A stretch of DNA of 64,000 bases, taken from contig NZ_AP025018.1 of the NCBI RefSeq assembly GCF_019977735.1, positions 3,534,001 through 3,598,000 of the forward strand, read 5' to 3'. The position numbers and the translations under genes are program-made. Shown here in pieces: positions 11,217 to 21,783 of this stretch. This DNA comes from Calothrix sp. PCC 7716 (GTDB lineage: Bacteria > Cyanobacteriota > Cyanobacteriia > Cyanobacteriales > Nostocaceae). Positions within the stretch are counted from its first letter, which is position 1; the number at the start of each line of letters is the position of its first letter. The notes beneath the pieces were generated by a model that made no database searches, was not told where the DNA came from, and saw nothing but the letters and a program-made list of their open reading frames with translations.

Positions 11217-11522
11217 ATGAGTAAGACCCTTGAAATGCCAACGCTGTACAAGCGGTTGTATGCAATAGGACTACCAGCAAGGTTTATTCAAGAGAAAGCA
11301 CTACCAGAATGGTGGGATGAGTCCCTCGAAAAAGACCCTGTAGCTGTTTTAGAGGCAGCAGGACGTATTGCAAAACGTCTAGGGCTTAATATGGCATCAG
11401 TTCTTGACCCTGATGCTCCCATTACTTTTAAACAATTTAGTAGCCCTAAATTTAAGAAAATGCAAAAAAGTAACGAAAATAGATTGATTGTTGCACAAGG
11501 GCTAGCAGCTCGCGTTGTTTAA
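11217..11522 (+). CDS. Truncated HTH protein of the ImmA/IrrE-metallopeptidase-associated type
   Basis: ATG at 11217 has a strong AAGGAGGG upstream. The 101-residue product (MSKTLEMPTLYKRLYAIGLP...) resembles the N-terminal helical/HTH part of cyanobacterial proteins that normally continue into an ImmA/IrrE-like zinc peptidase of about 380 residues in total; this comparison is from memory. Here it stops at LAARVV. Just past the stop a shifted frame reads N-L-P-A-F-K-P before another stop, like the expected ...CLPEFKPLP continuation. So the 3' three-quarters of the gene appear deleted or decayed. The remaining DNA-binding half could still be expressed. Confidence 0.6.
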   Translation: MSKTLEMPTLYKRLYAIGLPARFIQEKALPEWWDESLEKDPVAVLEAAGRIAKRLGLNMASVLDPDAPITFKQFSSPKFKKMQKSNENRLIVAQGLAARVV

Positions 11523-11681: not shown

Positions 11682-13163
11682 CTAAAAAACATTACTCAAT
11701 TCGCTTAATAATTCTCTACTAACAGGCGCCGTATTCAAAATATCATGTTTCAAGTCACCCCATTTTTTTCCTTCGCGTGTTTTATTTAAACTGAGAATTT
11801 CAGCCGCATGAGGATTTACTATTATGGAAGCTGGCGCCAGTTGACCCAAAAGTCTTGCATGGCGATATTGAGGAGACTGTTGCAGCAACATATCTAATTT
11901 TTCAGCAAGTTCCAACGTATCTGTATTGGCTGTATCTAGTAAAAGGATATATCTGGCTGTTGGGATGTGGGTAGGTATGAAAGTTTTAAAGTTGGTTTCA
12001 GCCAAAGCTAAATTATCAAGTACTTGACGGACGAACTCAGAGTGTAGTTTTTCTCCAACTAAATCACTAATTTCTTGTGTGCGTCCGATAAACTCTAGAC
12101 AAGGTGTAGCGTGATAGAAGTGGGTGACGCAAACTCGGTCTTTAATACGGTAACGGCATAACCCACCTTTTTGAGAAATAATAATTTCGTATACTTCTGC
12201 TTTTTTAAGTTCGTGGAGAAGATGTATATTACCTTTTTCGTCTTCAAACTCGAAAAATACCTCATCCAACATTGGTACACATCCATTTGCTGGTATGAGG
12301 GGAATGGTCATTGGCGCCTCAGTTGCTAAAAGTCCTTTACCCTGTACTAATACACCTGGGAAAAGCTTTCGTAATGTTTGGGCGCCATCTGCAGCGTTCG
12401 CACTGTCCCAACATGAAATTAGTTTGAGGTGGCGCCAGACTTTATGATATTGGGGTGCTTCCAACAGTAAGTTGTAGCGTTCGGCTGATATTTTAGTTTT
12501 TAACGACTCAGCTAGTTGTTTGTGATGAGTCTGTATATAGTCAAGAATGACTTTGAGAAAACTAGGACTCCATATTGAGATAATTTCTAGGTTTTCTGCG
12601 AGTAGTAGCGCTTGAGAAAGTTTGTGTTTAAATTCTTCAGCGTTTTGTATATGCTGTATTCCAGGAGGTGACACTAAAAAAGGACTGAGAATAGCACGTA
12701 ACCAACCATCAAGATATTCAGAGTCATCTTGTAAAGTTGTAACATCTGTGGGTGGAGTTAACTGTGGTGATATACAAAAGTAAATTCTTCCTGTTGAGAA
12801 TTTGGGACCATTGACAATTAAATCATGTGCCCAGACACAGAACATATGATTAAACGAACGACGTAAAGCTTTTGTATAAGGTATTAATTTTGCAGCACTG
12901 CGACTTCCTGATGTTTTTTCGTAAAAAATAATTGGTTCAGTAGTAAGCTTGTTTATACGACTTTCAATATCTTGGTATTCTACAATAGGTATTTGGCGCC
13001 AGTGTGTAATATTTAAAGATTTTCCATATTCACTTTGAGCAAAACGTTGGAAAAGTTCTTTCTGGAGATTTTTTTGCGTTAGTTCTGGGTTTTTAAGCGC
13101 GCGATTAAATCTATTTGCAGCAGGTGCGATAATTTTACCAAAAATTTGTATAAATATATTCAT
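11682..13163 (-). CDS. GH3-family acyl-acid amido synthetase, last gene of oxygenase operon
   Basis: This 493-residue GH3 enzyme belongs to the ANL-like superfamily that adenylates a carboxylic acid and joins it to an amine or amino acid, as plant GH3 proteins do with jasmonate or auxin. Visible motifs are the ATP phosphate loop KTSGSRSAAKLIPYT (about residues 84-98), the central GLLATEAPMTIPL and GGLCRYRIKDRVCV near residue 335, where plants usually have GLYRYRxGD. LEFIGRTQEISDLVGEKL is the C-terminal domain hinge. Gly to Lys in RYRIKD is unusual and may alter nucleotide handling. It starts two bases after the stop of the acyltransferase gene, so it is translationally coupled. Substrates are unknown. 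Confidence 0.82.
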   Translation of the reverse strand: MNIFIQIFGKIIAPAANRFNRALKNPELTQKNLQKELFQRFAQSEYGKSLNITHWRQIPIVEYQDIESRINKLTTEPIIFYEKTSGSRSAAKLIPYTKALRRSFNHMFCVWAHDLIVNGPKFSTGRIYFCISPQLTPPTDVTTLQDDSEYLDGWLRAILSPFLVSPPGIQHIQNAEEFKHKLSQALLLAENLEIISIWSPSFLKVILDYIQTHHKQLAESLKTKISAERYNLLLEAPQYHKVWRHLKLISCWDSANAADGAQTLRKLFPGVLVQGKGLLATEAPMTIPLIPANGCVPMLDEVFFEFEDEKGNIHLLHELKKAEVYEIIISQKGGLCRYRIKDRVCVTHFYHATPCLEFIGRTQEISDLVGEKLHSEFVRQVLDNLALAETNFKTFIPTHIPTARYILLLDTANTDTLELAEKLDMLLQQSPQYRHARLLGQLAPASIIVNPHAAEILSLNKTREGKKWGDLKHDILNTAPVSRELLSELSNVF

Positions 13164-13165
13164 AA

Positions 13166-13765
13166 TTATTTTACTACTGGAAGTGTGGTAGATATAGGTA
13201 TGTAGGTGTTATCGTTAATATTTACTCCTGGTGCAATATTATTACCGGCGCCTACAAATACATTGCTACCAATTTTTACTTTTTTTACGTATAGTAATAA
13301 ATCTTGTTTTTTTGGTTTAATTATATGAGAATAAATTCCAACTCCATACCCAAAAATCACATTATCACCTATTTCTATTAATCCTCTGTCAGCGATTTCT
13401 AATTTTGGTGTCCAGTAAACTTTTTTACCAACTGTTGAACCCCATAATCTTAACCACAGAGAAAACGCTCCTGGTATTAAGCGCAATATTGCTTCAAACA
13501 CAGGAAATGTTATATAGATAGATTGTATTTGATGACTTCCCCACCAAGGTGAATATTCTTTGCCACAAAGATAACTAATATCTTCTTTTATCGGTAAAAA
13601 GTAATTATGTATTCGATAAATCAGTAAAGGGAAGATATAAATAGAAAAAAATAAACTTAGTACGCTAATAATTCCAGGTTGATAGCAAATTCCTAGAAAT
13701 GAACTGAATATCATTAGCATGACTAAAGTTGGAAAAAAAGAAAGTACTGTACTTAGTAAAGTCAT
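13166..13765 (-). CDS. Membrane-anchored left-handed beta-helix acyltransferase
   Basis: The first ~55 residues form two hydrophobic segments (LSTVLSFFPTLVMLMIF and LSLFFSIYIFPLLIY). The rest shows a hexapeptide-repeat pattern: PKLEIADRGLIEIGDNVIFGYGV, KIGSNVFVGAGNNIAPGV, NINDNTYIPI. That is the LbH fold of O- or N-acyltransferases. At 199 residues it is short, with few complete coils. The gene overlaps the upstream hydroxylase gene by 4 bases (ATGA) and ends two bases before the GH3 gene. It may acylate the product of the pathway at the membrane; this is inference. Confidence 0.7.
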   Translation of the reverse strand: MTLLSTVLSFFPTLVMLMIFSSFLGICYQPGIISVLSLFFSIYIFPLLIYRIHNYFLPIKEDISYLCGKEYSPWWGSHQIQSIYITFPVFEAILRLIPGAFSLWLRLWGSTVGKKVYWTPKLEIADRGLIEIGDNVIFGYGVGIYSHIIKPKKQDLLLYVKKVKIGSNVFVGAGNNIAPGVNINDNTYIPISTTLPVVK

Positions 13766-14490
13766 ATAAAAGGAAAGAATAGTTTTTGCGATAAACTCAA
13801 ATTTGATATGGCGCCTAAATTTTCTGGTTGTTTTTCATTATCAGAATAAGTACCATGTATTTTATCCCATATTTTAAAGTTTGCTCCATAATTACCTCCT
13901 TCGTAATTACGCGCGTGATGCCATGCATGGTCTTGTGGTAAAATTAACCAAGGTGCAAGTAAACGGTAAATTTTAGATGTTGGTTTAGGTGTGAATGTGC
14001 TATGGCGCCATAAATCTAATGCTGATGTTAAACTGGCACCGAAAATATACCAAGTTGGGTCTTGCAGTAAGTATATAAATAATGAGTGAACCCATAAATA
14101 TATAATTAAAAAGCTTGTCCACAATGTATTGCGCGATGTTCCTACTACATCCATTGTTGTTACTGTATGGTGTACTTTATGCACTGACCAAAACCAAGGT
14201 GTGTGGAATATACGATGGTTCCAGTAGTATAAATAGTCTACGCAAATAAAGCTTAGGCTAAATGCTATTAATGGATGTAATGTCAGTGCGGATTTTAAAG
14301 TGGGGAGTAAGTTGTTATATAGTTGGAATACAACTGTGATTTGCAATATAGGAATAATAATTCCTTGGAAGCATAAACCAATCATATCTAAAAGCCAGTC
14401 TTGACGATTTTTACTGACTAGTATAGTTATAATGTTTTGATTGGCAAAAGTTAAAAATAGCAAAATAATAAAAGCAATAAAAATTAACAT
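13762..14490 (-). CDS. Membrane fatty acid hydroxylase / sterol desaturase family protein
   Basis: This 242-residue integral membrane diiron oxygenase has all three histidine boxes: H-RIF-H at 92-96, H-KV-HH at 104-108 and H-AW-HH at 187-191. Hydrophobic helices at roughly residues 1-15, 35-58, 72-90 and 125-142 anchor it. Family members hydroxylate or desaturate lipid-like substrates using O2 and electrons from a ferredoxin or cytochrome b5. It lies between the third Rieske gene (97-base gap with a repeat) and the acyltransferase (4-base overlap). SxtD of saxitoxin clusters is a relative by family only. Confidence 0.85.
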   Translation of the reverse strand: MLIFIAFIILLFLTFANQNIITILVSKNRQDWLLDMIGLCFQGIIIPILQITVVFQLYNNLLPTLKSALTLHPLIAFSLSFICVDYLYYWNHRIFHTPWFWSVHKVHHTVTTMDVVGTSRNTLWTSFLIIYLWVHSLFIYLLQDPTWYIFGASLTSALDLWRHSTFTPKPTSKIYRLLAPWLILPQDHAWHHARNYEGGNYGANFKIWDKIHGTYSDNEKQPENLGAISNLSLSQKLFFPFI

Positions 14491-14499
14491 AAAATTCCT

Positions 14500-14568
14500 T
14501 CTCTGTGAACTCTGCGTCTCTGTGGTAAAATCTTTTTCTTACCACAGAGGCACAGAGAAACAGAGGTA
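14500..14568. repeat. Dispersed CCACAGAG palindromic repeat
   Basis: CTCTGTG...TCTCTGTGGTAA and its complement TTACCACAGAGGCACAGAG form a long hairpin. The same family lies at 15960-15990, 19122-19193, 30272-30298 and 36886-36912. Here it interrupts the operon between two oxygenase genes. Confidence 0.7.
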
Positions 14569-14587
14569 AGAGATTAAAGAGAGTTTT

Positions 14588-15610
14588 TTATACCCAAAAT
14601 TCTACATTTACTGATTTATTTGGTAGTTGACGAGGGTCTTTTCCATCTGTGATAGCATTACGTATAGACTCGACGAATATATGGATGGTATCTGCGGGTG
14701 TGTTGGCAAATTGGGCGCCGTATTTTTCGATAACTTCTGATTGTATTTTTAATGCTTCGATATCTTGATGGATAATATATTGTGCTGTCCAATGTACAAA
14801 GGGTCGTGCGAGTTTGTTCCAAATGCCGTAGTTATATGTGACATCGGTGTATACTAAGGTGGAGTTTTCGGTTTCTGGTATTGACTGACTTGTTATAAAA
14901 AGTTTTCGGTGTTTGCCCATGTCGTATTCAACGCTGGTAATATTGGGCATGTGAAATGTATCTATATGATGTATTTGTGATGCTTTGCGGTTGAGAAAGC
15001 GCGCGAACCATCCTAGGTTATTGGTTTCGTTCTGGTATTGGGCAATAACTGTACCGTTTTTTCTTTCTACCAACATTTCTAGTTTTTGTTGACGAGGTGT
15101 GCGAAACACTCCTGGGTGAACGCTAACTGTGTGGGGGATATCAATAAAATTTTCAGCACAGTTGGTGACGTTGTTTTGAAAACGGTTTATTACACGTACT
15201 GTTTCCCATCCTGGTTTTTGGTAGTTGGGCATCGCGAAAGGTTTAAAATCTTCGGATGGGTTGGATGAGAGTTTTATGTATACGAAACCGTCTTGTTCTG
15301 TGGTGTTGTAGGTGAGTGTTTGACGCGCGTTACATATACGAGGGTTGTTTGCTTCGGAGGGGATGGTTACGACTTTGCCGTTTTTGTCATATACCCAACC
15401 GTGGTAAGGACAGTGTATTTGTCCTTGATGAACTTTTCCTTTGGATAGACGACTGTTTCTGTGCATACATTTATCTCGTAGTGCCACAGGTTTTCCGTCT
15501 GGGTCTCGGAATATTACTAACCACTCGTTTAAAATTGTACGTGAAAGAACGGTGTTTGTTTTGAGTTGTTTGCTTTCACAAACTATGTACCAAAAATCCT
15601 CGAATTTCAT
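14588..15610 (-). CDS. Rieske non-heme iron oxygenase, alpha-type (Rieske C)
   Basis: This 340-residue oxygenase uses O2 and two electrons delivered through its 2Fe-2S centre. The Rieske ligands are C48-x-H50 and C67-x2-H70 (CMH, CPYH). The mononuclear iron site is D157-x2-H160-x4-H165 in NFIDIPHTVSVH, with the preceding conserved Asn/Glu. The remaining carboxylate ligand should lie near EALKIQSEV. It differs clearly from the other two Rieske proteins of the operon in spacing. The ferredoxin gene ends two bases upstream of its start, a natural electron donor. The substrate is unknown; aromatic or guanidine-type substrates are known in the family. Confidence 0.88.
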   Translation of the reverse strand: MKFEDFWYIVCESKQLKTNTVLSRTILNEWLVIFRDPDGKPVALRDKCMHRNSRLSKGKVHQGQIHCPYHGWVYDKNGKVVTIPSEANNPRICNARQTLTYNTTEQDGFVYIKLSSNPSEDFKPFAMPNYQKPGWETVRVINRFQNNVTNCAENFIDIPHTVSVHPGVFRTPRQQKLEMLVERKNGTVIAQYQNETNNLGWFARFLNRKASQIHHIDTFHMPNITSVEYDMGKHRKLFITSQSIPETENSTLVYTDVTYNYGIWNKLARPFVHWTAQYIIHQDIEALKIQSEVIEKYGAQFANTPADTIHIFVESIRNAITDGKDPRQLPNKSVNVEFWV

Positions 15611-15612
15611 AT

Positions 15613-15900
15613 TTATATTAAAGGAGATATTTCAATATCATTTGTAAGTTGTATTTGACAAGCTAGTCTCGCTTGTTTATTTTCTGGTGCGAAGATTTCT
15701 AAGATTTCTTTTTCTTCTTCACTTGGTGGAGGAATGTCTCCTTTTATAGATACAAGGCAGGTTCCGCAAATTCCTGTTCGACATCCAAATAATATAGGGG
15801 AATTTTGTACTGTTAAATGTTCTGATAAGTTATCGTCTTGGTTAAGATGTATATCAGGATATTTTTGGTCAAAAGTAATTTTACAAACTTTTATATTCAT
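15613..15900 (-). CDS. Plant-type 2Fe-2S ferredoxin
   Basis: I start at ATG 15900 (MNIKVCKITF), giving 95 residues; the open frame back to 15969 runs through a repeat. The cluster ligands are C40, C45, C48 and C81 (C-x4-C-x2-C-x32-C, in FGCRTGICGTC and LACQ). It should carry electrons to the Rieske and diiron oxygenases encoded around it. It ends two bases before the Rieske C start. No dedicated reductase gene is in the operon, so a housekeeping ferredoxin-NADP reductase or photosystem I must reduce it. That last point is inference. Confidence 0.88.
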   Translation of the reverse strand: MNIKVCKITFDQKYPDIHLNQDDNLSEHLTVQNSPILFGCRTGICGTCLVSIKGDIPPPSEEEKEILEIFAPENKQARLACQIQLTNDIEISPLI

Positions 15901-15904
15901 TGTT

Positions 15905-16080
15905 ATATCTCTTGTGGAGCGGGCATCCCTGCCCGCCTCTACTAATTTAAATTTTTTTATTTTCACCACAGAGGCACAGAGTTTACAGAGAAGTTATTTT
16001 AACCAAATAGAAACCCGGTTTCCTTTGGTGTTTAGTGCTGGGTTGTTTTATTCAGTGATGGGGAAACCGGGTTTCTTCGG
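15905..16080. repeat. Composite of three dispersed repeats between Rieske B and the ferredoxin gene
   Basis: In order: CTTGTGGAGCGGGCATCCCTGCCCGCC (GGCATCC family), CACCACAGAGGCACAGAG (CCACAGAG family) and AGAAACCCGGTTTCC ... GGAAACCGGGTTTCTTC (AAACCCGGTTT family). The last one runs into the Rieske B coding sequence and encodes its C-terminal residues EETRFPHH. Confidence 0.65.
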
Positions 16081-17068
16081 GTTTATTAGACCACATTGAG
16101 GGCTGAAGTTGATTTACATATTGCATGTATTTTACTAGGGGTTCATCTATATTTAAAAGTGTATTAGGGTTATAATTAATATTGTCGTAAATCATGCCGT
16201 CTTCACCTCTAAGAAAGTAGTAAGCGGTTTTTGTTAGTAATAGTAATATTTTTGTTTTAAAGGCGCCTAATATACCTTTTCTTTTTTCTGCTATATATAT
16301 AGGTTGAATGCGTGTTCCTTTATCTATAGGAATGTAAGCATAAATCATGTGTAATGGCGCCACGAATTTGACTTTCTTCATAATTGTTAAAAGTCCAATA
16401 CATCCGTGTGCGTACCTCATTGTGTATTCGTAATAGTTTCCTAAAATTTGTCGTGCGAGCCTTTCTCTAGAAGTTGTATTGGGAAATTCGCCACTGAGGG
16501 TAAAATCTATAATGTCACCTCTAGCATTTGCTTGTAAAGATAATTTCATATCGATGTTCAATTTATGGACGGTTTGTAAATGTTGAGCATCGATACCGTT
16601 CATCATACAAATATGGTGATGACAACCTCGTTCAAACGGTTTATCAAACATTGTCATTAATGTTTTACCTTTGAGTTCGTCAAATTCTACTACACCTTCT
16701 GGCACCTTGGCATCAGGATAAATCCAAATAAAACCGTATTTTTCATCTATACTATAAGCTTGTAATTTAGCTTTTGCAGGAATTTCCTTTTGACAGGGAA
16801 TATCTTGACAAGTTCCTTCACCGTCAAATGCCCAATGATGAAAGTAACAGCGAATAAAGTTACCTTCTACTTTTCCTATTCCTAGGTCGGTTCCTAAGTG
16901 TGGACAATATGCATTAAGTGCGTGGAGTTGTCCGTTTGCTGTACGAAAGATGACGATTTTTTGCCCGCATAATGTTAAAGATTTTACTTTGCCTTTTGGG
17001 ATGTCTTTACTTGGACAAGCTATATACCATCCTTTGGCTATGATGTTGGGGTTATTGAAAATTTTCAT
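16052..17068 (-). CDS. Rieske non-heme iron oxygenase (Rieske B)
   Basis: This 338-residue protein has Rieske ligands C55-x-H57 and C74-x2-H77 (CPHLG and CYFHHW) and the iron site D160-x2-H163-x4-H168 (NGIDAQHLQTVH). The positions coincide exactly with those of Rieske A at 19203-20183, so the two are paralogues. It overlaps the upstream AurF-like gene by 4 bases (ATGA), indicating translational coupling. Its last ~10 codons are supplied by an AAACCCGGTTT repeat, so the native C-terminus may have been replaced. The substrate is unknown. Confidence 0.87.
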   Translation of the reverse strand: MKIFNNPNIIAKGWYIACPSKDIPKGKVKSLTLCGQKIVIFRTANGQLHALNAYCPHLGTDLGIGKVEGNFIRCYFHHWAFDGEGTCQDIPCQKEIPAKAKLQAYSIDEKYGFIWIYPDAKVPEGVVEFDELKGKTLMTMFDKPFERGCHHHICMMNGIDAQHLQTVHKLNIDMKLSLQANARGDIIDFTLSGEFPNTTSRERLARQILGNYYEYTMRYAHGCIGLLTIMKKVKFVAPLHMIYAYIPIDKGTRIQPIYIAEKRKGILGAFKTKILLLLTKTAYYFLRGEDGMIYDNINYNPNTLLNIDEPLVKYMQYVNQLQPSMWSNKPEETRFPHH

Positions 17069-18210
17069 GATGATGCAAACTGTTTGAATTTTTTAGTTTG
17101 ATGTGCTAAATATTTAGAAATGTTATTAGACCCCATTAACGTCATTTCTTTGTTACTCTTCCATACATAATCGAGTTTTTCTAGGTAAACTTTATAAGAT
17201 TCCATTGCTTCGGTATGTGTGTTGTAGCTACGATGTAGTCCTTCGCTTTCTTCTGTAAAACAGCGTCGCATCATTTCTTTTGCTTCGGCGCCATCCATAC
17301 TAAACACAGGTGAACACAACATTTGGTAAACTGCACTATATAAAGCGGGGTCATACCAAAAAATACCGTTGATGGCTACAGAAAAGTGATAATGGTCTTT
17401 TTGACAACCTTGTAAACCCAGGTTAGCTACTAATTTTTCAAATTCTGTTGGTGGTTTGAGACAATCAATCACATCATGGGAGATAATTGTCGAACTGTTA
17501 AAGTGAAAACTCTCGTCCATGAAGTGATAGTAAGATATTTTGGCTGGTATAGGCGCCTGTTCTTGGTTAGGATGTTTTTGGTAATAGTTACTTAGCTTAT
17601 GCTGTACGAGTTTACCGTTGAGTGTTCTAACTCCCCGTACAGTAAAATACTGACAAGCCAAAAAGGTGTTATCTGCCGAAAGTAACCCAAAAGCTTTTAA
17701 TTGCAGTTCTTTCCATTTGCGCTTGAAATAGTTAGTGTCGGCAAAAACCATTGTTTCGGCAAACGGACTTCGCATGGGATAACTAAATATACGTTTACCA
17801 AATAATGCTGTTTCAACTTCGTTCGCTACCGTTTTAAAAGCATTGATGTGCGCGCGTTCTTGACTCGATTCTAAATCAAGGGTGTCGCAAACTATGCGAA
17901 AATCTTCTTGGGCGTAAAGTCCGGCTGCACTCGTTTGGTTAAAATAAATGGTGGCAATTTCTGCGGAGATAATTTGCGAGTAATATGCTACCCAGTAAAG
18001 TTGATTTAAAATAATGCGTTGGCTAGAAGTTGCTTGTTCCCATAGGGGAGTGCCATACATTAAGGAAAATTCTTCAGGGTTCCAGTATTCGTTTTTACAA
18101 TCTTCGTAATTGAAAGCAGCAGATGCAGCATCGAGTAGTGCAGTGTGGTCTTGCTGTTTGTTACGTTTGTGGTTTATTTCTAGTCTACGGTTGACTACAG
18201 TGTTATACAT
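17065..18210 (-). CDS. AurF-like (p-aminobenzoate N-oxygenase type) diiron protein
   Basis: This 381-residue helical protein shows the AurF ligand pattern: E84 (SAEIATIYF), E118-x2-H121 (QERAHINAF) and H229-x3-E233-x2-H236 (YYHFMDESFHF). The last motif is the AurF signature that distinguishes N-oxygenases from ordinary ferritin-like proteins. I could not place the remaining glutamate ligand with certainty. AurF relatives oxidise amines to hydroxylamine or nitro groups. The gene overlaps its upstream neighbour by 16 bases and its downstream neighbour by 4. The assignment is by motif; the real substrate may not be an aryl amine. Confidence 0.72.
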   Translation of the reverse strand: MYNTVVNRRLEINHKRNKQQDHTALLDAASAAFNYEDCKNEYWNPEEFSLMYGTPLWEQATSSQRIILNQLYWVAYYSQIISAEIATIYFNQTSAAGLYAQEDFRIVCDTLDLESSQERAHINAFKTVANEVETALFGKRIFSYPMRSPFAETMVFADTNYFKRKWKELQLKAFGLLSADNTFLACQYFTVRGVRTLNGKLVQHKLSNYYQKHPNQEQAPIPAKISYYHFMDESFHFNSSTIISHDVIDCLKPPTEFEKLVANLGLQGCQKDHYHFSVAINGIFWYDPALYSAVYQMLCSPVFSMDGAEAKEMMRRCFTEESEGLHRSYNTHTEAMESYKVYLEKLDYVWKSNKEMTLMGSNNISKYLAHQTKKFKQFASS

Positions 18211-19103
18211 TGTTGTGGTGAAAAAGGTGTAAAAGAGTTACGCGCGTCTAGTTCCTGAACTATTGAGACAGTTTGCGGGTTTGTCATTAAGCCGCGCAGT
18301 AAGTTCAAACGACTGCTACTATGATATTCGGCGCCTAATTGTTGAAATACGGCGATTTTCTGCTGTCGTGATAAACTGCCTTTAACTTGTTCGACTGCTG
18401 CGACAACACCCTGTGGTCCGACTTGTACCATCTGTAGAAAAGATGCAAGTACTTCAATAATGGTTTTTTGACTTTGATGTTCTATCGAAACTTGCTCGCA
18501 TAACCTGACACCAGTAGCATGGTGACGACTTTCGTCTTCTAAAAAGCTTTGTAATACTACTTTGAATTCTGTGTTTATACAGTTTTTTGCCAAGTTTCGG
18601 TAATGTGTTAACCCCCATCCTTCGAGTATTACTTGCAGTACAAATATTAGTACAGCTTTCTCAGAAGTTTCAGCGACATCAGTGAGTAGATGCAAGAAAG
18701 GGTTATTTGTAGAAACTAGTTCGGGGTTTGGTAAGAAAGAACTTATTTTAGCAAGGTGAGTGACTTCATCTGCGCTAAATAATGCGTAGAGCATTCGTTC
18801 TTCGGTAGTTTCTGCGAGCATGACCATTTTTGACATGTAACCAATACCTGCTTTTTCAATAAAGTAAGCTTCTTCTAACAGTGTTTGGTTACAAAGGTGT
18901 AAAATTTGGGTTTGTTCTTCTGGAGTACTAGCTGAGAAAATATCGACTTTGTGTAAATCAAAATGTTCTGCATCCCAGTAAATTAAGTCTGTAGAAGATT
19001 TTATTTTCCCCACTTTACTTTGAAGCGCAGAGTCTAATATTCGACGCAGCTTATCTTCTTTAGAAACATGAGGTATATCAAAACCAGTAATCTTGTAATT
19101 CAT
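18195..19103 (-). CDS. Ferritin-like diiron protein of the oxygenase operon
   Basis: This 302-residue helical protein carries a full four-helix diiron ligand set: E77 or E78 (LLEEAYF), E113-x2-H116 (ADEVTHL), E161 (ILEGWGL) and E191-x2-H194 (EDESRHH). It is not a close match to any named enzyme I recall. Being stoichiometric with the AurF-like gene (16-base overlap), it could be a second oxygenase or an aldehyde/amine-processing diiron enzyme. ATG at 19103 opens a region after a CCACAGAG repeat. The function is unknown beyond O2 or iron chemistry. Confidence 0.72.
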   Translation of the reverse strand: MNYKITGFDIPHVSKEDKLRRILDSALQSKVGKIKSSTDLIYWDAEHFDLHKVDIFSASTPEEQTQILHLCNQTLLEEAYFIEKAGIGYMSKMVMLAETTEERMLYALFSADEVTHLAKISSFLPNPELVSTNNPFLHLLTDVAETSEKAVLIFVLQVILEGWGLTHYRNLAKNCINTEFKVVLQSFLEDESRHHATGVRLCEQVSIEHQSQKTIIEVLASFLQMVQVGPQGVVAAVEQVKGSLSRQQKIAVFQQLGAEYHSSSRLNLLRGLMTNPQTVSIVQELDARNSFTPFSPQQCITL

Positions 19104-19121
19104 AATAATCTCTAAATACTC

Positions 19122-19193
19122 TCTTCTCTCTGCGTTCTCTGTGTCTCTGTGGTGAAAAAAGATATTACCACAGAGACGCAGAGGACACAGAGG
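19122..19193. repeat. Dispersed CCACAGAG palindromic repeat
   Basis: CTCTGTGTCTCTGTGGTGA and TTACCACAGAGACGCAGAG form a long imperfect hairpin between Rieske A and the ferritin-like gene. It is the same family as at 14500-14568. Confidence 0.7.
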
Positions 19194-19202
19194 TTAATAT
19201 AG

Positions 19203-20183
19203 TTATTCCCATGTTGACCATACTCGCGGTTGTTGTTTTTCTGCGTGGTGGATAAATTGCATGATGGAGTTATCAGCTTTAGTAGGTGTTTTCAAATCGA
19301 ATTTAATCGTTTGGAAAATTTTAGTATCACCTTTAGCAAAGTAATTACCAACTGCATTAGTTAAAGCCAATACTATTCTATTAAAAATCCAACCAAGTAT
19401 TCCCGCGCGCTTTTTAGTAATTAAAATTGTTTGCCCTTCAGTTTTTCCTCCTTCTAATAGTCGCAACGTAAACATAATATGAAAATGTAAAAAGTCGGGA
19501 CCAACTGTCACTATACCTGTACTACCATACCAATAACACATATTATATGTCACAGCATTTTTATAAAAGGGACGAATTAATTTCAGGAATAATGAATTTT
19601 CTCCTCCGCGTGTAGTATTACTAAAAGTGATGGCGTTTTGAAGCTCATTTTTCTCAAATACTATTTTGACAGGAAAATTATGAACTGTGTTGAAATGGTG
19701 AGCATCTATAGCATTCACCATCACAACATTCGGGTGACAGTTCTTAATAAATCTTTTTGCTAAAGCACTATCACATTCTTCGTGTTCTAACTCAGGAACG
19801 AAAGGTAAGGGTAAACGTTCAGAGGGCGCCGTTTTTCCTGTCCATACCCAAATCATTCCGTACTTTTCTGCTGTTGGCCAAGTATTTATTTTGACGGGTA
19901 AAGCTTCGCCTATACAAGGTATTTCTATACATGTCCCGTCAACATCAAATTTCCAGTTGTGGAAAAAACAGCGCAGTGCATTACCTTCTACTCTTCCCTC
20001 TGCTAAATGGGCGCCCATATGTGGACAATATGCATCAACAGCAGTAACTGAACTGTCTTGTCCTCGAAATATTGCTAAGTCTCGACCCATAAGAGTTACA
20101 GGTTTAACTTGACCTTTTTTAAGATGATGTGAAGGTAATGCCCAGTACCATCCTTCGATAAAATATTCTGGGCTATTAAACAT
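19203..20183 (-). CDS. Rieske non-heme iron oxygenase (Rieske A)
   Basis: This 326-residue protein has Rieske ligands C53-x-H55 and C72-x2-H75 (CPHMG, CFFHNW) and the catalytic iron site D160-x2-H163-x4-H168 (NAIDAHHFNTVH). It aligns position for position with Rieske B. It begins MFNSPEYFIEGWYWALPS and ends EKQQPRVWSTWE, a more natural end than Rieske B. It is the second gene of the operon, after the GNAT-like gene. An AGAAACC repeat lies in the short gap upstream. Substrate unknown. Confidence 0.87.
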   Translation of the reverse strand: MFNSPEYFIEGWYWALPSHHLKKGQVKPVTLMGRDLAIFRGQDSSVTAVDAYCPHMGAHLAEGRVEGNALRCFFHNWKFDVDGTCIEIPCIGEALPVKINTWPTAEKYGMIWVWTGKTAPSERLPLPFVPELEHEECDSALAKRFIKNCHPNVVMVNAIDAHHFNTVHNFPVKIVFEKNELQNAITFSNTTRGGENSLFLKLIRPFYKNAVTYNMCYWYGSTGIVTVGPDFLHFHIMFTLRLLEGGKTEGQTILITKKRAGILGWIFNRIVLALTNAVGNYFAKGDTKIFQTIKFDLKTPTKADNSIMQFIHHAEKQQPRVWSTWE

Positions 20184-20252
20184 AAGAAACCTGGTTTCTA
20201 TTCGATAAATTAATTTTCATTATAATCTTTGAGAAGAAACCAGGTTTCTAGA
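20183..20252. repeat. AGAAACC(C/T)GGTTTCT inverted repeat pair
   Basis: AGAAACCTGGTTTCT (20185-20199) and AGAAACCAGGTTTCT (about 20235) are near-palindromes of the family also seen at 16005-16080 and 62975-63035. The second copy forms the 3' end of the GNAT-like gene. Confidence 0.65.
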
Positions 20253-20948
20253 AAACCAAATCCTTCTACCAGCTTTTGTTAAATTTTCTTCACTAATTTC
20301 AGCTAAACAAACTAACTCATCACCTCGTATATAACCTGGGTTATGTTTGGCAAAGAATTCGATATGTGGGTCTTGTAGACGTTCTAATGGAATTTGTTTT
20401 AACTCGTCGCGAAGTATATGAGGATGTGGAAAACGAACTATTCCTGCTATATGTTTATAAGACTCACCAAAGCGCTGATAACCTAAAAAGTGCATTAAGT
20501 CAGAGATACTCTCTGGTGTAGCTTTATCATATCGCGGATAAAACTCCTGCCAAAATATCGGTAGAAATCTATAGGTACGAAAACCACCTGAAATTAACAA
20601 CCAGTATAATTTACCTTCTGGGTACTGGCGCCTAATTTTCTGAACTGAAGTTATCCAAGTGCGAGACAGTGTAGAACTCGACCAAGCACTAGGGTCTACA
20701 ATCGTATCTCCAGAATAAACTATATTAATATTTTCATTATTAAATTGCGTAGTGTATATTAATAATGTCGAAAAACCTTTGAGTTGTTGAGTTTTCTGGT
20801 CTTCAAGCAAAATAACCCAGTTTTTCTTACTCAAATCTGAATCAAAAACATCTCGCCTAACCCCATCAAAATGATTACCAAGCAACAAATACATGGCATC
20901 TTTTTGACTATTCGATAAATATTCTATTTCTAATACTTGGCTTTTCAT
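20220..20948 (-). CDS. GNAT-like acyltransferase, first gene of oxygenase operon
   Basis: This 242-residue protein is not firmly recognised. The pattern (KNWVILLEDQKTQQLKGFSTLLIY, NIVYSGDTIVDPSAW, KLYWLLISGGFRTYRFLPIFW) suggests an acetyltransferase-like alpha/beta fold. It is the promoter-proximal gene of the ten-gene minus-strand operon; the 110 bases to rsmE on the opposite strand must hold two divergent promoters. Its last residues (FSRNLVSSQRL) are encoded by an AGAAACC repeat. A role in acylating an amine in the pathway is possible but unproven. Confidence 0.55.
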   Translation of the reverse strand: MKSQVLEIEYLSNSQKDAMYLLLGNHFDGVRRDVFDSDLSKKNWVILLEDQKTQQLKGFSTLLIYTTQFNNENINIVYSGDTIVDPSAWSSSTLSRTWITSVQKIRRQYPEGKLYWLLISGGFRTYRFLPIFWQEFYPRYDKATPESISDLMHFLGYQRFGESYKHIAGIVRFPHPHILRDELKQIPLERLQDPHIEFFAKHNPGYIRGDELVCLAEISEENLTKAGRRIWFSRNLVSSQRL

Positions 20949-21060: not shown

Positions 21061-21783
21061 ATGGCGCAACTACAACGTATTACTATATCTCCGCACCAAA
21101 TTAGAGATAATCAGGTTGTATTAGAAAAAGACCAGCTTCATTACCTAACTAGGGTTTTACGCTTATCTGATGGTGATAAATTCATTGTCATGGATGGGGT
21201 GGGAAAATGGTGGTTAACTTCCTTACAGTCCGAGTACGGTGAGATATTAGAAGCTTTAGAGGTACAGACAGAGTTAAAAGTATCTATCAGCTTATTGTTA
21301 GCACTGCCAAAAGGTAACGCCTTTGATGATGTAGTACGTATTTGCACGGAATTAGGAGTTGATACAATTGTTCCGATAATAAGTGAGCGTACTCTTTTAA
21401 AACCTAGTTCGCAGAAGCTTGAACGTTGGCGCCGAATAGCAGCAGAAGCAGCAGAACAATCTGAACGTGCGTTTGTTCCAGTTATTTATGAACCAGTTAA
21501 TTTTACTCAAGGGTTAAGTTTATTTGAAGCTTCACAAAAGTACATTTGTGAGGGACGTGGTGATAACCCGCATTTACTGAAGTGTTGGCGCCAAGTTGGG
21601 GAAAGTAAGGTAAAGGTTGTTATTGCTATTGGACCCGAAGGAGGGTGGACTAAAGAAGAGTTAAAAAATGCTGTGAATGCTGGGTTTAAAATGGTTTCGT
21701 TGGGTAAAAGAATTTTACGTGCTGTAACGGCGCCTTTTGTTGTTTTATCTATTTTGGCTGCCGAGATGGAAAACGACTCGTAA
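21061..21783 (+). CDS. rsmE: 16S rRNA (uracil(1498)-N(3))-methyltransferase
   Basis: This 240-residue SPOUT methyltransferase methylates U1498 of 16S rRNA with S-adenosylmethionine. The N-terminal PUA-like domain has HYLTRVLRLSDGD. The trefoil knot has LALPKGNAFDDVVRICTELG, ISERTLLK, AAEQSERAFVP, AIGPEGGWTKEE and LGKRILRAVTAP, all diagnostic. The TAA stop falls in a TAAGGACTTCAGTCCTTA palindrome just downstream. Confidence 0.93.
   Translation: MAQLQRITISPHQIRDNQVVLEKDQLHYLTRVLRLSDGDKFIVMDGVGKWWLTSLQSEYGEILEALEVQTELKVSISLLLALPKGNAFDDVVRICTELGVDTIVPIISERTLLKPSSQKLERWRRIAAEAAEQSERAFVPVIYEPVNFTQGLSLFEASQKYICEGRGDNPHLLKCWRQVGESKVKVVIAIGPEGGWTKEELKNAVNAGFKMVSLGKRILRAVTAPFVVLSILAAEMENDS

Follow-up and report, generated by a model that had tools for sequence, protein, structure and literature searches.

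A ten-gene oxygenase cluster of Calothrix sp. PCC 7716 that may build an oxidised N-acyl lipid, with a glutamine at an essential glutamate position of its CylC-like diiron enzyme

We examined a 64,000-nucleotide stretch of the Calothrix sp. PCC 7716 genome (G000:C1:3534001-3598000, genome size 12.37 Mb; hereafter the window), in which ten open reading frames (ORFs) run on the minus strand from 20948 down to 11682. An initial annotation of the same DNA had read them as an oxygenase operon, and the ORF list, Pfam, motifs and a GNAT-fold model bore out the coordinates and families it gave. In transcription order the genes are:

20220 to 20948, minus strand: GNAT-fold acyltransferase-like protein, first gene of the run, 242 amino acids (ORF; AlphaFold2 model compared with GNAT folds)
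19203 to 20183, minus strand: Rieske oxygenase A (RieA), 326 amino acids (PF00355; iron-site motifs)
18195 to 19103, minus strand: ferritin-like diiron protein, 302 amino acids (Ferritin_2 below cut-off; invariant putative ligands)
17065 to 18210, minus strand: CylC/AurF-like diiron enzyme of the PF28091 family with Gln203, 381 amino acids (homologs, motifs, profile alignment)
16052 to 17068, minus strand: Rieske oxygenase B (RieB), 338 amino acids (PF00355; iron-site motifs)
15613 to 15969, minus strand: plant-type [2Fe-2S] ferredoxin, 118 amino acids from a GTG start, or 95 from the likely ATG at 15900 (PF00111)
14588 to 15610, minus strand: Rieske oxygenase C (RieC) with a VanA_C-like C-terminal domain, 340 amino acids (PF00355, PF19112)
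13762 to 14490, minus strand: membrane fatty-acid hydroxylase, 242 amino acids (PF04116 above cut-off)
13166 to 13765, minus strand: hexapeptide-repeat acyltransferase with a hydrophobic N-terminal part, 199 amino acids (PF00132, 29.7 bits against a cut-off of 27)
11682 to 13163, minus strand: GH3-family acyl-acid amido synthetase, 493 amino acids (PF03321, PF23571 and PF23572 above cut-off)

Successive genes are separated by +36, +99, -16, -4, +82, +2, +97, -4 and +2 bases. The true start of the ferredoxin probably lies downstream of the GTG at 15969: in 12 of the 13 other loci with a ferredoxin match, homology sets in only at residue 14-48 (at residue 1 in L014), and a start at ATG 15900 would widen the gap to RieB from 82 to 151 bp. 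The packing first described, with overlaps of 2-16 bases or tiny gaps, thus holds for five of the nine junctions; the other four are gaps of 36-151 bp. Plus-strand ORFs bound the run, one at 21061-21783, which by its sequence we take for RsmE, and a small one ending at 11522 on the other side. A site scan returned promoter-like sites (30 against 34.8 expected) and terminator-like sites (8 against 6.6 expected) at background level.

The cluster falls into an orphan class that was already published and does not define a new one. In the available sections of their 2021 survey, Eusebio et al. assigned 36 of 95 CylC-homolog clusters to a 'Rieske-containing' category, the most abundant, found chiefly in Nostocales and Oscillatoriales (PMC8406957). 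Such clusters are described there as having two to four Rieske proteins, mostly one CylC homolog together with a sterol-desaturase protein, acyltransferases, no carrier protein and an unknown product, and action of their enzymes on fatty-acid intermediates was proposed as possible. The window cluster likewise has three Rieske proteins, a single CylC homolog and a PF04116 sterol desaturase/fatty-acid hydroxylase. Pfam and NCBIfam found no carrier protein or FAAL among its ten genes, GH3 being a different kind of adenylating enzyme. The expectation in the initial annotation that standard tools would miss such a cluster agrees with the survey text, in which CORASON did not detect Rieske-containing clusters and 40 CylC clusters needed manual annotation (PMC8406957). 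In line with the initial annotation, no product for the class was found in the literature searched, which did not include most subscription journals. In contrast to the survey, in whose main text the word GH3 does not appear and in whose available sections the CylC homolog counts as a putative halogenase, we add a co-inherited core that includes GH3 and GNAT, a second locus of three genes, a wider spread and a subtype of the diiron enzyme defined by a Glu-to-Gln change.

To count partners we used a protein scan with one genome per species, which gave 160 relatives of the AurF-like protein. The best 80 loci were kept, and 48 of these 80 named loci, each of at least 21 kb, form the main counts; the other 32 are shorter. 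Genes were sought by tblastn at E up to 1e-6 and can be missed where the 10-kb flank ends; a length filter on the locus rows kept 77 AurF-like and 12 ferredoxin sequences. Among the 48 loci, RieA, the ferritin-like protein and the ferredoxin were each present in 47, RieB and GNAT each in 44, the hydroxylase and RieC each in 42, the hexapeptide protein in 39 and GH3 in 36. The gene set, which the initial annotation had proposed to seek in other cyanobacteria, is therefore co-conserved: all ten genes occur in 29 of the 48 loci (33 of all 80), and the exact gene order of the window in 12 (15 of all 80). Among the 80 loci, five genes flanking the run in the window were found in L051-L055 only, all Calothrix-type, so within the fetched flanks conservation of the set does not depend on its surroundings.

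A second count covered 292 genomes drawn across the phylum. Orthologs of the AurF-like protein (at least 57% identity), RieC (at least 47% identity) and GH3 (above 295 bits) were each found in 18, and the three lists name the identical 18 genomes. These limits were chosen after a score gap had been seen (GH3 295.9 against 252 bits, RieC 47% against 39%, AurF-like 57% against 31%), and the figure of 4.6e-29 for two independent 18-genome sets coinciding is invalid as a P value owing to shared ancestry and frequent linkage. The shared presence is not merely shared linkage, since GH3 lies 2.9 Mb from the cluster in one carrier (G125) and AurF-like, RieC and GH3 lie 0.4-0.96 Mb from each other in another (G076). 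GNAT matches (E up to 1e-3) were found in 27 of the 292 genomes, comprising all 18 carriers and nine more, the weakest at E 9.8e-4. The ten genes are thus co-inherited beyond chance, and the earlier proposal that they serve one pathway is well supported, including by unlinked co-occurrence.

The fourth protein of the run is the AurF-like diiron enzyme. Its relatives carry the database name 'P-aminobenzoate N-oxygenase AurF' and the family label PF28091, and it scored 20.1 bits with the AurF family PF11583, under the gathering score of 29.6. The next tier of similar sequences in the 292 genomes consists of CylC-type proteins (about 31% identity, 401-469 amino acids), and profile alignment with these gave 31% identity at an hhalign probability of 100. 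Ferritin-like diiron family, weak Pfam match and database name are what it shares with AurF; it differs in that AurF D135 and E196, located by way of the available NocO comparison, both correspond to Gln. An N-oxygenase function was considered and rejected, as the protein falls under the Pfam cut-off, has no sequence match in the PDB and has CylC-type proteins as its nearest characterised relatives. The suggestion of an N-oxygenated product is not supported.

For the dimetal halogenase NocO, nine essential active-site residues are named in the available text, and the E252A variant bound iron normally yet showed no chlorination (PMC12101540). The window protein keeps eight of the nine: E84, Q117, E118, H121, H229, D232, E233 and H236. 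From spacing and conservation we assign E84 as the probable first-helix ligand. The six expected diiron ligands are kept in every AurF-like row examined, and the ExxQExxH and HxxDExxH motifs in 78/78. The ninth residue, NocO E252, is Gln203 in the window protein. Gln occupies this position in 83/83 locus orthologs, in the Planctomycetota locus L128 and in all 231 database relatives among the matches listed (the best 120 of 1160 plus the best 120 of 1111, overlap removed and window protein included); the locus rows and database rows overlap. By contrast, Glu is found at the matching position in 11/11 CylC-type proteins, taken as full-length ORFs from 11 of 12 loci. The Glu-to-Asp spacing in all 11 is 30, as between E252 and D282 of NocO, and that in the window protein is 29. 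Profile-profile alignment placed Q203 opposite E252 of the 434-residue protein of L027, and a slight shift of the alignment would not provide a glutamate, as residues 198-211 of the window protein contain none.

Compared with CylC and NocO, the protein thus belongs to the same superfamily and retains the six expected ligands as well as the second-sphere Gln and Asp (available text of PMC12101540). It is shorter, with 381 residues against 401-469 in the 11 CylC-type proteins, carries Gln in place of E252 and has no acyl carrier protein (ACP) partner among the ten genes. Given Gln203 in place of an essential Glu, halogenation cannot be assumed. From these alignments we conclude that the enzyme probably uses the CylC/NocO diiron scaffold and is not classifiable as a halogenase on present evidence; Gln203 makes a halogenase assignment doubtful and testable.

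That the protein is nevertheless a true halogenase, giving a chlorinated or cryptically chlorinated fatty-acid product with Gln203 supporting a diiron site that has an open chloride position, is the best of the competing explanations, although we consider it unlikely. It draws on the published placing of the clade among CylC homologs (available sections of PMC8406957), on the six retained ligands and on the two motifs, whose presence is the test applied by a current halogenase mining pipeline (PMC12871659, as far as its available text describes it). Gln is moreover a weaker ligand than Glu, hence an open site is conceivable. Two points count against it: the residue essential in NocO (PMC12101540, in part) is Gln throughout the listed relatives, and no carrier protein or FAAL is encoded among the ten genes, when the characterised members, in the text available, use ACP-tethered chains. 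Mining by motif as described in the accessible part of PMC12871659 would by itself not separate the AurF-like clade from halogenases.

Additional homologs were also noted. A second, CylC-type homolog lies in the same genome at G000:C1:3474556-3475857, about 58 kb upstream of the window start; its open frame has 485 amino acids, with pieces of 31% and 39% identity. In Mojavia pulchra (L076) the AurF-like and ferredoxin genes form a tandem duplicate, with identities of 77% and 65% when compared with the window protein.

Enzymes of the GH3 family activate an acid by adenylation before coupling it to an amino acid. The last protein of the run matched PF03321 with 91.4 bits against a cut-off of 23.6, and its solved relatives are JAR1/GH3. 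Residues T84-S85-G86-S87, E282 and G333-G334..R337-Y338..D342 are invariant in 21/21 rows. By comparison with the available text of PMC12493201, the three GH3 nucleotide-binding motifs are recognisable though divergent; the strict third motif YRYR..D occurs in 36/48 rows, and the window protein, with CRYRIKD, lies outside this pattern. The bacterial GH3-like enzyme OlsH, described in 2025, joins free fatty acids to ornithine at the expense of ATP, giving N-acyl-ornithine, according to the sections available (PMC12493201). Because of the adenylation motifs and the OlsH precedent, amide formation by the GH3 protein, with acylation by the acyltransferases of the run, is plausible. In both systems a GH3-like enzyme is the proposed catalyst of amide formation on a fatty acid (PMC12493201, in part); they differ in that the ten window genes are without OlsI or OlsG and encode six oxygenases instead. 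We regard the parallel with OlsH and OlsE as a lead and not a demonstration.

A 249-residue gene was seen within the cluster at L038:10374-11123 and L039:10696-11445, where it separates the ferritin-like gene from the AurF-like one and runs on the opposite strand. Pfam identifies it as an alpha/beta-hydrolase in L038, and size and place match in L039; OlsI is of that superfamily.

The remaining enzymes of the run have intact catalytic motifs, as judged by conservation across rows. Pfam matches above cut-off were obtained for Rieske (three proteins), Fer2, FA_hydroxylase, Hexapep and GH3; Ferritin_2 and AurF matched their respective proteins below cut-off. The Rieske cluster motif CxH/CxxH is present in 72/73 RieA, 60/60 RieB and 62/62 RieC rows, and DxxHxxxxH in every row of each (73/73, 60/60 and 62/62). 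By sequence profile, the nearest solved relatives of RieA are SxtDIOX, SxtT and KshA, and the best NCBIfam match of both RieA and RieB is the SdmA model. The hydroxylase keeps HxxxH and two HxxHH motifs in 54/54 rows; its only NCBIfam match is OlsE, at 56.6 bits far under the cut-off of 475. The cluster-binding cysteine motif of the ferredoxin is found in 13/13 rows. In the ferritin-like protein two ExxH motifs occur in 74/74 rows, and E78, E83, E113xxH116, E161 and E191xxH194 are invariant in 28/28, which we read as a putative two-histidine, four-carboxylate site. Its AlphaFold model (predicted local distance difference test score, pLDDT, 88) is all-helical, with weak Foldseek matches to a PaaC-like protein (the best, E 0.012), AurF (E 0.041), ADO and VlmB; with a best E of 0.012 the fold class alone can be stated. 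The first protein of the run had no match in Pfam or NCBIfam. Its model (pLDDT 87) matched GNAT acetyltransferases with a best E of 4.5e-7, probability 1.00 and a template modelling score of about 0.4. Profile searches of PDB sequences with the ferritin-like, AurF-like and GNAT proteins returned nothing useful. The motifs accordingly support the six oxygen-activating metalloenzymes first proposed, namely three Rieske oxygenases, the hydroxylase, the ferritin-like protein and the AurF-like protein. A role as a defence system was also considered and dropped, PADLOC giving no match for the five of the ten proteins submitted.

The pathway is larger than ten genes. In many relatives RieB lies upstream, beside an Mpo1-like gene, and in many of the Nostoc type the genes adjoining RieB are those for an amidohydrolase (568 amino acids), the Mpo1-like protein and a GT2 glycosyltransferase. 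Among the 48 loci, Mpo1-like was found in 23, the amidohydrolase in 18 and GT2 in 7. In the window genome the same three stand in a row at a second locus 6.7 Mb from the cluster (G000:C1:10266995-10270682), with 65% (Mpo1-like), 77% (amidohydrolase) and 67% (GT2) identity. The closest solved sequences of the amidohydrolase are PpOngB, a carbohydrate de-N-acetylase, and D-aminoacylase-type deacylases. Above 470 bits, with the next best match at 108, it occurs in 9 of the 292 genomes, all within the 18 carriers, and the G125 copy is truncated by a stop. In L041 the amidohydrolase is fused to the Mpo1-like protein, and in one metagenomic protein (P0166, from a single 2-kb contig) an Mpo1-like domain is fused to the AurF-like enzyme, an arrangement seen once. 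The Mpo1-like role is presumably alpha-oxidation of 2-hydroxy fatty acids, as its Pfam name suggests.

Parts of the set also occur by themselves. Seven of the nine extra GNAT genomes carry a GH3 relative no more than about 5 kb from GNAT on one contig, so GNAT and GH3 can form a module in the absence of the oxygenases; the remaining two have a hexapeptide, ferritin-like and GNAT trio (G058) and a weak match only (G063). A fatty-acid desaturase accompanies the GNAT-GH3 pair in L143 and L144, and a hexapeptide protein in L149. At L045:5754-6833 and L047:13389-14468 a 359-residue gene adjoins GNAT with the rest of the cluster not nearby; Pfam identifies it as a fatty-acid desaturase in L045.

Modules pairing GNAT and GH3 with radical SAM proteins in place of oxygenases were observed at L148:8199-10966 and L149:5852-12897, the former with the B12-binding type; these are a possible oxygen-independent counterpart.

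Taken together, the conserved motifs and linked genes suggest that the ten genes constitute one co-inherited pathway building and heavily oxidising an N-acyl (amino or glyco) lipid, a reading to which we give a probability of roughly 0.5. GH3 would adenylate a free fatty acid or related acyl acid and couple this to an amino acid or amine, in the manner of OlsH with ornithine, and the GNAT-fold and hexapeptide enzymes would attach further acyl groups. The acyl chain or chains would be oxidised by the hydroxylase, the three ferredoxin-fed Rieske oxygenases and the ferritin-like and CylC-like diiron enzymes. The second locus, with its GT2, its amidohydrolase and its member of the Mpo1-like 2-hydroxy-fatty-acid dioxygenase family, would probably add a sugar and trim the chain. 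In this scheme we infer the lipid substrate, the step order, the chemistry of each oxidation and the membrane location.

A lipid is favoured because the fatty-acid hydroxylase matches OlsE, because Mpo1-like genes recur in 23 of the 48 loci and one is fused to an AurF-like enzyme in P0166, and because desaturases accompany GNAT-GH3 pairs (L143, L144) or stand beside GNAT (L045). It is favoured as well because fatty acyl chains are the substrates of the characterised CylC-type relatives, according to the available text of PMC12101540 and PMC8406957. No evident transporter was found in the neighbour groups of at least 3 of 18 loci, with Pfam run on the amidohydrolase, Mpo1-like and GT2 groups only, and the absence of a recurrent exporter would fit a membrane-resident lipid. 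Of the 'lipid or aromatic amide' first suggested as product, these linked genes thus favour the first half.

Several observations weigh against this account. Pfam found no counterpart of OlsI, the alpha/beta-hydrolase O-acyltransferase that partners OlsH, among the ten proteins, and GH3 enzymes also take aromatic and jasmonate-type acids. The nearest solved relatives of RieA act on steroids and alkaloids, and the family matches of the hydroxylase and hexapeptide protein are generic. One carrier (G018) has RieA, the ferritin-like protein and GNAT some 25 kb off on the contig. The amidohydrolase, strong in 9 of 18 carriers and broken in one of them, is not essential to the pathway. An HlyD-type secretion gene beside the trio of G058 (L150) counts a little against the absence of an exporter.

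Some of the same evidence raises an aromatic, terpenoid or steroid-like acid as substrate, in which case the GH3 product would be an aromatic or isoprenoid amide, with rings hydroxylated by the Rieske enzymes. The SdmA match of RieA and RieB and the resemblance of RieA to KshA and SxtT/SxtDIOX would suit such a substrate, as would the plant GH3 enzymes that conjugate benzoates, auxin and jasmonate. We nevertheless judge it improbable, since the recurrent neighbours are of lipid type, with no gene recognised among them for making an aromatic or isoprenoid skeleton, and since family likeness says little about the substrate of a Rieske enzyme. A loose neighbourhood, or a scavenging or catabolic set, might be read from junction gaps of up to 99-151 bp and from a variable gene order in which RieB, GNAT and GH3 shift place, but is very improbable given that three separately tested genes occupy the identical 18 of 292 genomes even when unlinked and that an ATP-consuming amide ligase with acyltransferases points to synthesis.

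Within the N-acyl lipid reading we tentatively propose, with appreciably less confidence, a so far unrecognised class of N-acyl amino- or glycolipids, built by GH3 and heavily oxidised, in both photosynthetic and non-photosynthetic Cyanobacteriota, the central enzyme having close relatives in Halobacteriovorax and a Planctomycetota bin as well. Here a Gln-for-Glu diiron enzyme that branched from the radical halogenases might functionalise C-H bonds of an untethered lipid in a different way or with different tuning. Its step would belong to a series with those of the three Rieske oxygenases, the membrane hydroxylase and the second diiron enzyme, joined in many carriers by a dioxygenase for alpha-oxidation. 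If this is true, a widespread bacterial lipid family has so far been overlooked, and the category of CylC-homolog clusters that is largest in the available sections of the 2021 survey may not be a halogenation pathway. The Gln-for-Glu position gives a direct handle on how halogenating and oxygenating diiron enzymes differ.

The distribution extends well beyond the window strain. By the AurF-like protein, the nearest named relatives are Dulcicalothrix desertica PCC 7102 (98%) and Calothrix strains. Three of the carriers (G004, G018 and G038) fall in a different class of the phylum, and none of these had a PsaA or PsaB match, both photosynthetic controls being positive and G038 being only 73% complete. 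Relatives of the AurF-like protein among the matches listed include Sericytochromatia, Melainabacteria, Halobacteriovorax and Halobacteriovoraceae. The pathway is thus not tied to photosynthesis. A contig binned as Planctomycetota (L128) encodes RieA, a short-chain dehydrogenase, the ferritin-like and AurF-like (64%) proteins, the ferredoxin and RieC, with multihaem cytochromes adjoining, and represents either a transfer or a binning error.

The window genome itself contains two psaA/psaB pairs, at G000:C1:7790150-7794699 and 2458640-2463167; a second photosystem I set is known from far-red acclimation clusters.

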